Made by a program: the position numbers and the translations under genes. DNA of 64,000 nucleotides from Haematococcus lacustris (taxonomy: Eukaryota > Chlorophyta > Chlorophyceae > Chlamydomonadales > Haematococcaceae): positions 699,501 through 763,500 of the forward strand of contig JASKMD010000031.1 of the NCBI GenBank assembly GCA_030144725.1, written 5' to 3'. The notes below the pieces were generated by a model. That model was given only the letters and a program-made list of their open reading frames with translations, was not told the DNA's origin and did no database searches. Numbering within the stretch: position 1 is the first letter of the stretch; the number at the start of each line of letters is the position of its first letter. Shown piece by piece: positions 53,278 to 63,726 of the stretch.

Positions 53278-53338
53278 TTACTCGCCCATGCGCGCGAGGA
53301 GCTGAGCCTCAGTGTTGTGGCGAGCACCCAACCCAGCG
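53278..53338 (-). pseudogene. 3' end of hAT transposase, separated by insertion
   Basis: Read on the minus strand after the CCCAGCG duplication, this continues the transposase frame ending at 58453 as LGARHNTEAQLLARMGE and then TAA (53278-53280). It is the displaced last 17 codons of the hAT gene split by the 5.1-kb element. Confidence 0.75.
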
Positions 53339-53925
53339 CAATCAAGTCTCCCGGTAACTCTTCCACCTGTGAGGTAGAATTACTTCCCGCTGTCAGGTGG
53401 AATAGCGCAACCGCCAAACCGCTGCCCGCACAGGTCGTGTTGCTCTATCTAGGGCCATCTGCAGCTCTGCGGAAAAGACGGCTGCGCAGCAGGGTAAAGA
53501 ATGCCCATGGTAATCCTCTCCAGTAGCCTCAGCGCCGGCAGCTCCTACCAGCACCAGACAAGGCGCACCAGCTGCAGTGCACAAATCAGCTGCTGGGCCA
53601 ACGCTACGTCCGTACCAGCTGCTGCGGATGCTAAGGATGGACTGCGGTCCCAGCGGCCAACGCAGCTCGCGCAGTAGGAAACGGTCGCTCCCACCCAGGT
53701 ATGAGCTGCGTTGTGCCCGTTGTTGCTGGTATACCCACACATGTTGTTGCTTGCTGCTGTTGTTGCACCTCACCAGCTCAAGTGCTTAATGCACAGCTAT
53801 GCGCTGCATTGCTTCACTCCTATGTGTGTCATCGTGCTGGTTGTGGTGCTCGCCCACAGGTATGGCGACACAGAAGCGTATCACCCGTGAGCAGACATTG
53901 CCCCAAAAGGGGCGAAGCCATGTTG
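53339..53925 (+). repeat. Left arm of long inverted repeat
   Basis: Matches 57869-58452 on the opposite strand, with only scattered substitutions over about 585 bp. The longest shared open frame (minus strand, 53393-53773; 126 codons) differs between arms mainly at amino-acid-changing sites, so it is probably not a protein under selection. Confidence 0.9.
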
Positions 53926-54049
53926 GAAGAGTTACAGGTGGAAGAGTTACTGGGACACTTGATTGGCTGCCCCGCAGCCAGCCCAGCCTATGCGAAGCCG
54001 ACCTGGTCAGCAACCCACGACCAGCCAGAGCTCTAGGACCGCCGCATCC

Positions 54050-54712
54050 CAGTCCCGCCCCACCCCCTCCCAACCTTGCGTTGCCCCTTCCCTCCCTGCC
54101 CACCCCTGCCCCACCCCCTCCCACCCCTGCCTCACCCCCTCCCACCCCTGCCCCACCCCCTTCCTGCCTTGCGTTGCCCCTCCCCTCCCTGCCCAACCCT
54201 GCCCCACCCCCTCCCAGCCCTGCCCCACCCCCTCCCAGCCCTGCCCCACCCCCTCCCAGCCCTGCCCCACCCCCTCCCATCCTTGCGTTGCCCCTCCCCT
54301 CCCTGCCCAACCCTACCCCACCCCCTCCCAACCTTGCGTTGCCCCTCCCCTCCCTGCCCAGCCCTGCCCCACCCCCTCCCACCCCTGCCCCACCCTATCC
54401 CAACCCTGCCCCATCCCAGCCCTGCCCCACCCCATCCCAACCCTGCCCTACCCCCTCCCAACCTTGCGTTGCCCCTCCCCTCCCTGCCCAGCCGTGCCCC
54501 ACACCCTGCTAGCCCTGCCCCACCCACTCCCAGCCCTGCCCCACCCTATCCCAGCCCTGCCCCACCCCAGCCCTGCCCTGCCCTGCCCTGCCGTGCCCTG
54601 CCCTGCCCTGCCCAGCCCTGCCTTGCCCAGCCCTGCCCTGCCCAGCCCTGCCCTGCCCTGCCCTCCCCTGCCCTGCCCTGCCCTCCCCTGCCCTGCCCTG
54701 CCTGTAGGTGTG
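54050..54712. repeat. C-rich repeat block (ccctgccccaccccctccca)
   Basis: Irregular tandem repeats of a ccctgccccaccccctccc-type unit, ending in shorter ccctg/cccag units near 54570-54710. All plus-strand frames read as Pro/Ala/Cys-rich noise. It lies inside the 5.1-kb element. Confidence 0.9.
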
Positions 54713-55335
54713 TGGCAGTGCAGGCTGCATGTAGCAGCAGGCTGTTGGTGTGCTACACTGCATGAGCAGCAGCAGTAGGAGCAGGCTGTAGTGCATGAGC
54801 AGCAGTGCAAGGACAGCTGCAGCAGCAGGCTGTGCGCTTGTAACAGTGCAGGTAGCAGCAGGCTGCAGGTGTGCAGGCTGCAGGTGTGTGCAGGTGTGCA
54901 GGCTGCAGGTAGCAGCAGGCTGCAGGTGTGTTGCAGTGCATGAGCAGCAGCAGCAGGCAGCAGTGCATGTGACGAAGTGCATGAGCAGCAGCAGGCTGTA
55001 GCGCATGAGCAGCTGTGCAAGGACAGCAGCAGCGGGAGGCTGTAGGTGTGTGGCAGTGCAGGCTGCAGGTAGCAGCAGGCTGTAGGTGTGCTGCAGTGCA
55101 TGAGCAGCAGCAGCAGGCTGCAGTGCATGTGTTTTAGTGCATGAGCAGCAACAGCAGCAGGCTGTAGTGCAACGAGCAGCAGTGCATGGGCAGCAGCAGC
55201 AGCAGGTTGTAGGTGTGTTGCGGTGCATGATTAGCAGCAAGAGCAGCAGGCTGTAGTGCATGAGCGATGCATGGACAGCAGCAGCAGGCTGTAGGTGTGT
55301 GGCAATGCAGGCTGCAGGTAGCAGCAGTGCCCATC
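54713..55335. repeat. gtagcagcaggctg interspersed tandem repeats
   Basis: Many diverged copies of units such as gcagtgcaggctgca, gtagcagcaggctgt and gcatgagcagcagcag. No gene is recognised. This block continues the low-complexity interior of the 5.1-kb element. Confidence 0.88.
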
Positions 55336-55535
55336 AGTCAGAGCCCATCAGTGCAGTCAGAGCCCATCTGAGAAGAATGTTGCATGGTACAAAAGCTTTC
55401 AAGAGGCTGTCCTGAGCGTCCGTTCAGTTCCATGCCACACAACGTGAATTGTAAGCTGTGAATGGTCAAGATGTAATGAAGAAAACGGTGGTGGTCATTA
55501 GCCGTGTATCCTCTTCTCAAACGATTCCTACGCCC

Positions 55536-55935
55536 CTTGTATGGACAACACCACCACGCGGTGATGCGCTTAGGCCGCAAATGTGGTAGCCACCTGCTAC
55601 AAACCCCCTTTGCATGTATGCATCACGGTCATGCTTAGCAAGTGCAACCCTGGCAGTGATCCACACCCAATGTGTCACAGCTTGCTGGACCACGGATGGT
55701 ACCTATAGTGGAGGCTCACCACGTCTAGCCACATGCTAGGGTGTGGTGCGCCACATGCCCCTTGTATGGACAACACCACCACGCGGTGATGCGCTAATGC
55801 TGCAAACGTAGTAGCCACCTGCTACATACCCCCTTTGCATGTATGCATCACGGTCATGCTTAGCAAGTGCAGGCCTGGCAGTGATCCAGCCACATGCTAG
55901 GGTGTGGTGCGCGTTATGCCCCTTGTATGGACAAC
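55536..55935 (+). repeat. Tandem duplication of about 220 bp
   Basis: A unit starting ccccttgtatggacaaca and running through ccctttgcatgtatgcatca to ctggcagtgatcca occurs at about 55536 and 55757. A third, truncated start is at about 55919. Copies differ by a few substitutions and small indels. Confidence 0.85.
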
Positions 55936-56274
55936 AACACACAGCTAGGTCCTGGAGACGCATCCATAACAATGTAGTGTGTGCATGTGGTCGGTGCATG
56001 AGGGCGACACTAGGGGTATCAGGCTTGCAGCTGCAAACCATGCTATCACTTGCGTCTCGTGAGTAGTGCATTACATCAAGGCTTGGTAAGGCACGTTATG
56101 CTAGCAAGGGCAAGAACACGAGAACGTTACGAAGATGGGTTATCCGTACAAGCGGGCCATCCATGCACTAACCGGTTGTCAGCTTGACACAAAACATCCT
56201 ACCCTCCCACTATTACATTAGAAGACTAGGTATCATTGAGACTTCAAGGCTGTGTGACGTACGCTTGCATCAAC

Positions 56275-56517
56275 ATGATGTTGCATACTCAACATGACTT
56301 TACAGGAGCCAAAATTACGATGCATGGCAAGTACATGACACACATCACCCCAACCCTTTTCAATGCCATTCACAAAGCCAAGCAGCCCAATGTCTCGCCA
56401 TCATCTGTGGGTGCTATTATCCACACAGCAAGGAAGTCAAGAAGCTCAAGACATACATGGGACAAGCGCAATTGTTTTCACTTGTCCCACAGGGGCCAAG
56501 GGGCAGGTGGCCAGTAG
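56275..56517 (+). CDS. Unidentified ORF inside the 5.1-kb element
   Basis: From ATG at 56275: MMLHTQHDFTGAKITMHGKY, THITPTLFNAIHKAKQPNVS, then SSVGAIIHTARKSRSSRHTW, to a stop at 56515-56517. The composition is balanced, unlike the surrounding repeats, and the frame is open upstream to 56236. It could be a remnant of element-encoded protein. I recognise no family and no splice context supports a larger gene. Confidence 0.3.
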   Translation: MMLHTQHDFTGAKITMHGKYMTHITPTLFNAIHKAKQPNVSPSSVGAIIHTARKSRSSRHTWDKRNCFHLSHRGQGAGGQ

Positions 56518-56639
56518 GGCTGAGCCCGGCTAAGCTAAGCAGAGGCTGTGTTGTGGCAGGTAAGGGGGAATGGTAGAAAGGAAGGGGAGAGGAGGTGCCC
56601 ATCAGACCTGCAACCAAGGGGCATGCACATGAGGGAGGA

Positions 56640-56935
56640 GGTTAGGCTGGGTATTGGGTGTCGGCCACTTGCCGGCAGGCGATTAGCTAGAAAGGGACGA
56701 ATGAGAAGGGGCAGGGAGAAGAGGGCTACTACTAGCTCTAGGCTGCCCGCTGGGGTGGGGGACTTGGTGGTAGTGGTTGGACAGCAGAGGGAAGGAGCAA
56801 GAAGCCAAGGGGCAGGAGGCCAGCTGGGCTGGGCTGGGTGTCAGCCACTTGCCAGCAGGCGGTTAGCCAGGCGGTTACCTAGGGCAGGCAGGAGAGGAAG
56901 AAGAGGAATGAGAATGGGCAGGGAGAAGAGGGACA
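56640..56935 (+). repeat. Imperfect tandem duplication, purine-rich
   Basis: A segment with gtcggccacttgccggcagg and gggcagggagaagaggg at about 56655-56728 recurs at about 56838-56933 with a small expansion. No gene is recognised here or in the remaining interior to 57868, where a minus-strand frame is kept open by repeats. Confidence 0.7.
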
Positions 56936-57540
56936 AGAGGGGGCTTCCTCCTGGCTGCTGGGTAGGGTAGGGAGGGGACCACGATGTCCAGGGGGAGGTG
57001 AGGGGGAGTGGGGGCGTAGGAGACTTGGAGGTGTTGGTGATGGGTAGGAAGGGGGAAGGGGCTATGTAACTGTTACACCTGCAGCAAGCAAGGGGCACGC
57101 TTGTGATCAACAAACAAGGACATGCATGACTAGAAGTGGGCAGGCTGGCCAAACACCCCGACAACGCCTGGCTGCCGCTCCTGGCTGTGCTGTGCTGGGA
57201 ATGCTGTGCTGGGAATAGACACACAGATAGGCACACATGATGGGACACACAGATAGGAACACGCAGGCACAAGCACAGGCTAGCACGAGACATGTGTACC
57301 TGGACATTTCTAGAAGATTGCCGACATTGCTGACTTGTATCGACATTTCCGCTGCTCCTGCCGCCACTGCCGCCGCTGCTGCCGCTGTTGCCGCTGTCGA
57401 CGCTGTCGATGCCTGTTGATGTCTCTGTCGCCTCTGCCACTGCTGCTGCCATCGTCCTACTTGCAATCCTTTGGTATGCTGCCCGCTTGCCCCTGTCCCC
57501 CACTATCTGCCTAGCCACTCTGTGCTTGCCATCGTTGTTA

Positions 57541-57572
<32 letters not shown>

Positions 57573-57868
57573 GCTAGCACCGCCTCCCCCACTGATGCCG
57601 CCATCACATCGTGCGCCTTGGGCGGGCATCTTCCCAAGCACCAGTAGGCACAAGCATGGACATATTCTTCCCTGTTGATAAGCAAAGCATGCCTTTCTCT
57701 GATACTCTATCCCTGCTGCGTTTGCCACTGCAGCCCTGAGTGTATACTGTTGTCTTGCCCCTCCACCGCCTGCCTACCCCTGCTGCACCTGCCCCGGCTG
57801 CGCTTCATACCTGCCCCTGCCCCTTGTGGGCCAGCTGTGCTTACTGCATGCTCCTGCTGTGATGCCAA

Positions 57869-58452
57869 CATGGCTTTGCCCCTTTTGGGGCAATGTCTGC
57901 TCACGGGTGGTACGCTTCTGTGTCGCCATACCTGTGGACGAGCACCACAACCAGCACGATGACACACATAGGAGTGAAGCAATGCAGCGCATAGCTGTGC
58001 ATTAAGCACTTGAGCTGGTGAGGTGCAACAACAGCAGCAAGCAACAACATGTGCGGGTATACCAGCAACAACGGGCACAACGCAGCTCATACCTGGGTGG
58101 GAGCGACCGTCTCCTACTGCGCGAGCTGCGTTGGCCGCTGGGACCGCAGTCCATCCTTAGCATCCGCAGCAGCTGGTACGGACGTAGCGTTGGCCCAGCA
58201 GCTGATTTGCGCACTGCAGCTGGTGCGCCTTGTCTGGTGCTGGTAGGAGCTGCCGGCGCTGAGGCTACTGGAGAGGATTACCATGGGCATTCTTTACCCT
58301 GCTGCGCAGCCAACTTGTCCGCAGAGCTGCAGATGGCCCTAGATAGAGCAACACGACCTGTGCGGGCAGCGGTTTGGCGGTTGCGCTATTCCACCTGACA
58401 GCGGGAAGTAATTCTACCTCACAGGTGGAAGAGTTACCGGGAGACTTGATTG
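57869..58452 (-). repeat. Right arm of long inverted repeat
   Basis: Inverted partner of 53339-53925. Similarity stops abruptly at ccatgttgg on the inner side, where the left arm goes on into a second copy of the terminal motif. The outer end gacttgattg abuts the CCCAGCG repeat at 58453. Confidence 0.9.
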
Positions 58453-58650
58453 CCCAGCGTTGGCCTTGATGTAGATGAGCATCTTGGCGCGCTCTAGGGT
58501 AAGCCTGGTGCGGGCGGATGTGAACAACCTGCCCCATGCTGACCAATTGCGCTCTGATGCAGCCGAGGTGGCATGCACACCCAAGAGCCTGCTGGCTGCA
58601 ACAGCCAGATGGGGGAAGCCGTCAGACACCCCCATGGCAACGGTCTGCAT
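58453..58650 (-). pseudogene. hAT transposase C-terminal (dimerisation) domain, interrupted
   Basis: Minus-strand reading: VSDGFPHLAVAASRLLGVHA, then TSAASERNWSAWGRLFTSA, then RTRLTLERAKMLIYIKANAG. This is the hATC signature (ATSAxxERNWSxxG, then a helix ending LIYIxxN). An AG acceptor lies at 58645-58646, so this is a terminal exon. The 5.1-kb element interrupts it at the Ala-Gly of KANAG, and its last codons now lie at 53278-53338. Upstream exons would lie beyond 58650, where (TGGC)n begins at 58731, so the rest of the gene is missing or beyond the gap. Confidence 0.85.
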
Positions 58651-58730
58651 GGAGTGCAGCAGGTTTCACGGAGGGGTTGAAGCTCAGTAATGGCAACCGT
58701 GCAGGCAGCAGCGTGCAGGCAGCAGCTAGG

Positions 58731-63726
<4,996 letters not shown>

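Follow-up and report, generated by a model that had tools for sequence, protein, structure and literature searches.

A transposable element with long terminal inverted repeats (arms) was analysed in a 64,000-nucleotide stretch of the Haematococcus lacustris genome (308 Mb, 597 contigs). This stretch, C182:699501-763500, is referred to as the window. As judged from sequence comparison, the element is very probably a copy of a non-autonomous, long-armed cut-and-paste family of the KDZ (Kyakuja-Dileera-Zisupton) superfamily that would be moved in trans. This reading is based on three insertions, independent of each other, that share the terminus, have 7-bp target-site duplications and each carry a KDZ gene, and the superfamily assignment is well supported. 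The element thus represents a family that is new but of a known kind, and not an unknown superfamily. A preliminary description of the window had considered an undescribed superfamily; this proposal was not supported, because a KDZ transposase is encoded by elements that have 7-bp duplications and the same first 37 bp.

KDZ genes between shared ends

The ends of the window element were compared with those of the KDZ-bearing elements listed in Table 1. The element on contig C175 (L041) agrees with the window element at each of the first 37 bp and is 89.8% identical to it over 118 bp. Two frames on the minus strand of its interior matched the Pfam KDZ domain PF18758 (E=5.6e-8 and 2.7e-6). Of the elements on C40 and C127 only the ends were fetched, and their arms measured 348 bp and about 329-358 bp, respectively. 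The three were taken as independent insertions because their target-site duplications differ. In the elements on C175 and C40 the KDZ match starts 1776 bp from one end, and in the C127 element this distance is 1723 bp; a KDZ match also starts 1723 bp from a lone terminus at C127:3333479. Owing to this near-constant distance from the end in two subfamilies, the KDZ gene looks integral to the element.

A genome search with PF18758 resulted in 76 matches, grouped into 63 loci, with none in 14 control genomes. Forty-two of these loci fall where termini were listed. Three of the 42 lie inside terminus-bounded elements (0.2 Mb in total), for which the rough chance is about 2e-5, assuming 170 Mb, and two more lie less than 8 kb from a single terminus. 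Further KDZ families with other ends probably exist in the genome, since 37 of the 42 loci lie more than 8 kb from any listed terminus. The 13 best KDZ matches lie in stop-free open frames of 235-458 codons.

Seven related proteins were found, all from H. lacustris and all with a KDZ match. The CxC3 zinc cluster PF18804 was matched in three of the seven (E 2.4e-4 to 1.7e-5), each time under the curated cut-off, and for P0019 CxC3 is listed in the database's own annotation. D, D and E motifs (DACL/DACT/DAMT, IDFACQ/VDIACR, GEQTEQ) are common to the proteins that cover those stretches, and by analogy with the superfamily they would provide the catalytic residues.

A KDZ transposase supplied by the coding elements would bind the terminal 40-120 bp or so of coding and non-coding elements, excise them and reinsert them at 7-bp staggered cuts. 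The recognition signal probably lies within the terminal 40-118 bp, as the window element and its KDZ-bearing relatives are homologous over no more than about 118 bp, and L036 has at its left end only about 40 bp in common with the other ends. An inverted motif (TCCACCTG ... CAGGTGGA) was present in the terminal stretch of six of the eight end sequences compared; one half is missing in L037 and also in the left end of L036. L037 and L045 represent further subfamilies, with about 115-120 bp of end sequence in common with the window element and with different arms.

Family copies, target sites and arms

The genome was searched with the 22-bp terminus (at most one mismatch) and with the arm. The terminus gave 203 matches, 97 of them forward and 106 reverse, a count that includes inner termini; positions were listed for the first 100. 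The reversed control gave none. No matches to the terminus pattern were found in viral and prokaryote collections. The arm gave 61 matches, with 40 of 345 first-look candidates scored. Both searches recovered other insertions, the collection of which had been proposed as a check in the preliminary description. Forty-three end pairs were examined: 16 of 27 arm-search loci and 27 from the terminus list, the latter including L035 with its far end. Eleven arm-search loci (L012, L013, L017, L023, L024, L029, L030, L031, L033, L034 and L035) were left out because an end was missing, truncated, in a gap or beyond the fetched stretch; L035 was re-entered with its other end. Forty-two pairs were readable, one flank of L048/L049 being in a gap.

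The target-site duplication was exactly 7 bp in 34 of the readable pairs. Variable duplication length, which according to the preliminary description would count against its reading, was limited to one pair with 8 bp and seven without an exact duplication. L020 and L022 share one site among the 34. The 33 distinct duplications gave no target-site consensus (at most 0.22 bits per position) and no palindromic tendency. Chance was ruled out by the 203 terminus matches against none for the reversed control, together with the exact 7-bp duplication in 34 pairs. The 16 arm-search pairs have identical first and last 15 bases, all starting with CAATCAAGTC and finishing with GACTTGATTG, so the boundaries of other copies are consistent with those of the window element. 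L014 is 99.3% identical to it over the full length, interior included, which points to the recent movement suggested before.

Two nested arrangements were observed. A self-insertion at C127:5693345-5703760 has the right end of the inner copy 67 bp from that of the outer copy, with the duplications TTAATCC (counted) and, for the outer copy, GAACCCT (read by eye and uncounted). In L035, a 1057-codon open frame (L035:4027-7197), by eye a gypsy-type reverse transcriptase, is nested in a family copy.

Mirrored flanks, the right one reading as the reverse complement of its left counterpart, were found in L032 (199/199 bases), L038 (60/60) and L037 (58/60); the flanks of L018 are mirrored by similarity, not identity. 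L032 itself is palindromic (2 x 2.86 kb, 99.5% identity). These cases look like either a fold-back assembly error or a real palindromic duplication.

Identity between the two arms of one copy (98.87%) exceeds that between arms of different copies (98.60%), and in 20,000 permutations so high a value never arose (13 copies; L022, L028 and L032 excluded). At arm position 354 the left and the right arm have the same state in 14 of 15 copies, though both states are common. Since variants shared by both arms are not expected without exchange, within-copy gene conversion or fold-back repair is likely and would keep the long arms alike; for gene conversion this agrees with the preliminary description. 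Homogenisation appears incomplete, as positions 515 and 543 still tend to separate left from right arms.

A third, inner terminus, overlooked previously, follows the left arm of the window copy and together with the outer left terminus bounds a 627-bp unit with terminal repeats (53339-53965). It was found on exactly one arm in 15 of the 16 paired copies, and was therefore probably present in the ancestor of the family; the exception is L032, which lacks it and is close to a perfect palindrome of the right half. Inspection of the 100 listed termini by eye revealed no 627-bp unit standing alone, and terminus pairs about 605 bp apart were seen only within longer copies. For one such pair, L012, no partner was present within the 10 kb fetched, and the sequence matches the core about 15 bp past the inner terminus. 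Use of the inner terminus on its own was rejected, as no free-standing unit was among the termini listed. It may be a leftover of the origin of the arms, by duplication of one end or fusion of a short element, that is inherited without visible use alone. We consider it doubtful that the inner terminus is functional, that is, that it serves the KDZ transposase as an alternative end and causes aberrant transposition of the fold-back type, by which the arms are kept alike and the flanks sometimes mirrored. If true, the family would be a KDZ counterpart of Foldback/Galileo elements, reshaping chromosomes.

Weighing the assignment against known systems

Comparisons with published elements refer to excerpts of the cited papers. 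Relatives of Chlamydomonas are reported to contain Kyakuja and Zisupton elements (PMC8226300). For Kyakuja elements, CA..TG ends and 7-bp duplications are reported, with 8 bp for Zisupton and a Dileera element (PMC12730594). The H. lacustris family resembles Kyakuja-1_LB and -2_LB of Laccaria bicolor in the KDZ transposase (here in the partners), the CA..TG ends and the 7-bp duplications (PMC12730594). KDZ1, KDZ2 and KDZ3 of Cryptococcus neoformans likewise have terminal inverted repeats and a KDZ transposase, there with a zinc-cluster domain; they differ in arms of 241, 139 and 169 bp, in duplications of 8 bp or 4-8 bp, and in the zinc cluster, which is CxC1 as against the weak CxC3 match in H. 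lacustris (PMC12810828). Kyakuja-3_cRei of Chlamydomonas reinhardtii is, like the present elements, a green-algal KDZ element, and was found as a new insertion in CBA1 (PMC10828217). The excerpt of PMC9861903 has no bearing on inverted repeats.

Several points weigh against the KDZ assignment or against movement in trans. The KDZ domain is absent from the window copy in the Pfam scans of its interior, and none of the 76 KDZ matches lies inside the 16 arm-search pairs; movement by the KDZ protein of coding elements is what we infer for a copy without a KDZ gene of its own. The end of homology with the KDZ-bearing elements at about 118 bp belongs here as well. The KDZ matches in L041 are modest and frame-split and cross stops when read through (introns were assumed), and the overlap of KDZ loci with termini is drawn from 100 of the 203 termini. 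The reverse transcriptase inside L035 illustrates that residence in an element is alone no proof of ownership. An exact duplication is absent in seven of the 42 readable pairs (L011, with 6/7 matching bases, L016, L018, L032, L037, L038 and L056/L057), three of which have mirrored flanks. The structure prediction for the KDZ protein P0017 (mean predicted local distance difference test score, pLDDT, of 37) was uninformative and not used. Among described elements, Kyakuja-1_LB and -2_LB have no inverted repeats and carry a TET/JBP gene according to the excerpt of PMC12730594, as opposed to arms of 588 bp here, and Kyakuja-3_cRei, likened by its description, has an 8-bp duplication and imperfect inverted repeats (PMC10828217). 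The three KDZ-bearing relatives in H. lacustris also have arms, unlike the Laccaria elements as published.

A P-superfamily element was the first hypothesis, suggested by the arms, the 7-bp duplications and the CA end. In Drosophila Galileo, with P-type transposase, the arms are long and repetitive in their interior and the duplications measure 7 bp, and Galileo/Foldback-like elements share with the window element the very long arms, non-coding copies and 7-bp duplications; they differ in the P-type transposase and the lack of KDZ (PMC2775673). The P-type domains PF21787 and PF21788 gave no genome match at E<=0.001, a weak negative as the control genomes were silent too. This hypothesis was dropped as improbable, weak as those negatives are, because KDZ genes were found inside elements bearing these ends. 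Furthermore, the 33 distinct duplications are unlike the GTAGTAC consensus of Galileo (PMC2775673).

The chances are slimmer for a hAT variant with 7-bp duplications (hAT7) that is moved by the abundant hAT transposase of the genome. Such hAT7 elements are known in rust fungi (PMC12730594), and hAT copies are numerous in the H. lacustris genome. However, no hAT domain was found in the two interiors scanned (window element and L041), hAT is here the target and not the cargo, and the transposase found with these ends is KDZ.

Target-site duplications of Mutator-like elements (MULEs) are usually 9-11 bp long, as compared to exactly 7 bp in 34 of the 42 pairs, and no MULE domain was detected in the same two interiors. 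A MULE is thus highly unlikely, although long arms are typical of this group and extra internal termini are known. Solo termini in addition to long inverted repeats have been described for plant MULEs (PMC3310237), and the window element resembles them in a third terminus inside the element that has no target duplication of its own. In tomato, only one of 12 distinct solo-terminus MULEs had another copy (PMC3310237), compared to 15 of 16 paired copies that have the extra terminus in the present family, which belongs to a different superfamily.

Misassembly or recombination of inverted sequence, a concern raised in the preliminary description, may explain the three readable pairs with mirrored flanks, beside which L018 is similar but imperfect. 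It can practically be dismissed for the window copy, which has an exact duplication between two unlike flanks, whose undivided site is present elsewhere in the genome, and with which dispersed copies agree.

With the KDZ assignment, exact ends and duplications are available, together with candidates for the coding partners and a non-autonomous derivative present in many copies, which makes KDZ ends directly testable. The within-copy homogenised arms of 348-588 bp compare with 139-241 bp or none in the cited KDZ reports. KDZ is in our judgement a little-studied transposase superfamily, and Haematococcus is an astaxanthin producer. No description of KDZ in Haematococcus was found in the literature searched, which did not extend to Repbase, supplementary files and subscription papers; 'KDZ' occurs zero times in the excerpted main texts of two Haematococcus genome papers (PMC7617258, PMC10400597).

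The window copy and its insertion site

The boundaries of the window element proposed in the preliminary description were confirmed, as the arms, the CCCAGCG duplication and the empty sites all agree. The element comprises 5114 bp (53339-58452). Its near-identical arms, estimated at about 585 bp, were measured as 588 bp, and the outermost 135 bp of both are identical. The flanking 7-bp repeat was also found as proposed.

Table 1. Coordinates of features in the window and of related elements elsewhere in the genome
Feature	Position	Strand	Remarks
Last 17 codons and stop of hAT frame, severed by insertion	53278..53331	-	joined-flank translation; identical string ends P0002, P0004, P0005, P0006
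Target-site duplication CCCAGCG (7 bp), left	53332..53338	.	single copy in 5/5 empty sites
Left arm (long terminal inverted repeat)	53339..53926	+	588 bp; 579/588 identical to right arm, ungapped
Outer left terminus CAATCAAGTCTCCCGGTAACTCTTCCACCTGT	53339..53370	+	common to KDZ-bearing elements
Third, inner terminus copy	53934..53965	-	30/32 identical to ends; inverted relative to outer left end
Non-coding interior	53966..57864	.	common to other copies; Pfam-negative in six frames
C-rich tandem repeat, interior	54048..54702	.	
GCA/GCTG-rich tandem repeat, interior	54702..55327	.	
Right arm	57865..58452	-	588 bp; without inner terminus
Outer right terminus	58421..58452	-	terminus comparison
Target-site duplication CCCAGCG (7 bp), right	58453..58459	.	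exact repeat of left copy
hAT C-terminal dimerisation region, internally deleted copy	58460..58665	-	Pfam PF05699 (Dimer_Tnp_hAT), E=1.6e-8 on 58417-58665
KDZ-bearing element L041	C175:15874469-15882296		7828 bp; arms 348 bp (344 identical); duplication GGTAGGT; interior unlike window element
Second KDZ-bearing element	C40:8701700-8709681		same terminus; duplication GAAGCTG
Third KDZ-bearing element	C127:3390844-3398461		same terminus; duplication CTTGGGG
Mirrored-flank copy L032	C127:610561-617048		
Mirrored-flank copy L037	C143:13434439-13438677		
Mirrored-flank copy L038	C166:4912661-4917713		

Pfam scans agreed with the earlier statement that the window copy has no recognisable transposase. 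Ten interior open frames gave only Phospholamban (E=0.063) and VSG_B (E=0.29), both weak and implausible, and six interior frames with X in place of stops gave zero matches. A transposase concealed in the interior was rejected, as neither scan had a plausible match. The Rfam scan of the window gave no matches. A protein search with an open frame of the arm resulted in one match, from H. lacustris (55% identity over 71% of the query), which was not used further.

When the flanks were joined, the frame of the hAT C-terminal region continued as KANAG-LGARHNTEAQLLARMGE-stop, as had been predicted. Thirteen related hAT proteins were found, 72-100% identical to the window piece and all from H. lacustris. 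The predicted C-terminal string is exact in four of them (P0002, P0004, P0005 and P0006); six end in LGARRSNEAQLLARMGE, P0008 in LGACQSNEAQLLARMGE and P0013 in KANARHNTEAQLLARMGE, while P0012 diverges more. At the DNA level, empty sites with ACCCAGCGTTGG and one CCCAGCG were present in all five hAT copies fetched. The 68 bases around the junction are ungapped in all five, with gaps elsewhere in the 200 bases in three. The five were taken from 41 hAT matches, the window's own included, 40 of 114 candidates having been scored.

The claim that the element cleanly splits a hAT gene stands for the junction, which is clean, and needs qualifying for the gene. In the host copy, TVAMGVSDG (residues 185-193 of the 715-residue P0003 gene model) is joined to FPHLAVAAS (residue 644 onwards), with no intervening P0003 residues. 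It was thus already an internally deleted relic before the insertion, which consequently trimmed 17 codons from a remnant and did not break a working gene. The full 248-bp hAT end is matched by three further genomic copies, at C176:1249845 (99%), C89:2024433 (98%) and C276:610375 (83%). A TGGC tandem array of about 1249 copies (58731-63726, 100% matching) adjoins the insertion and borders the hAT relic.

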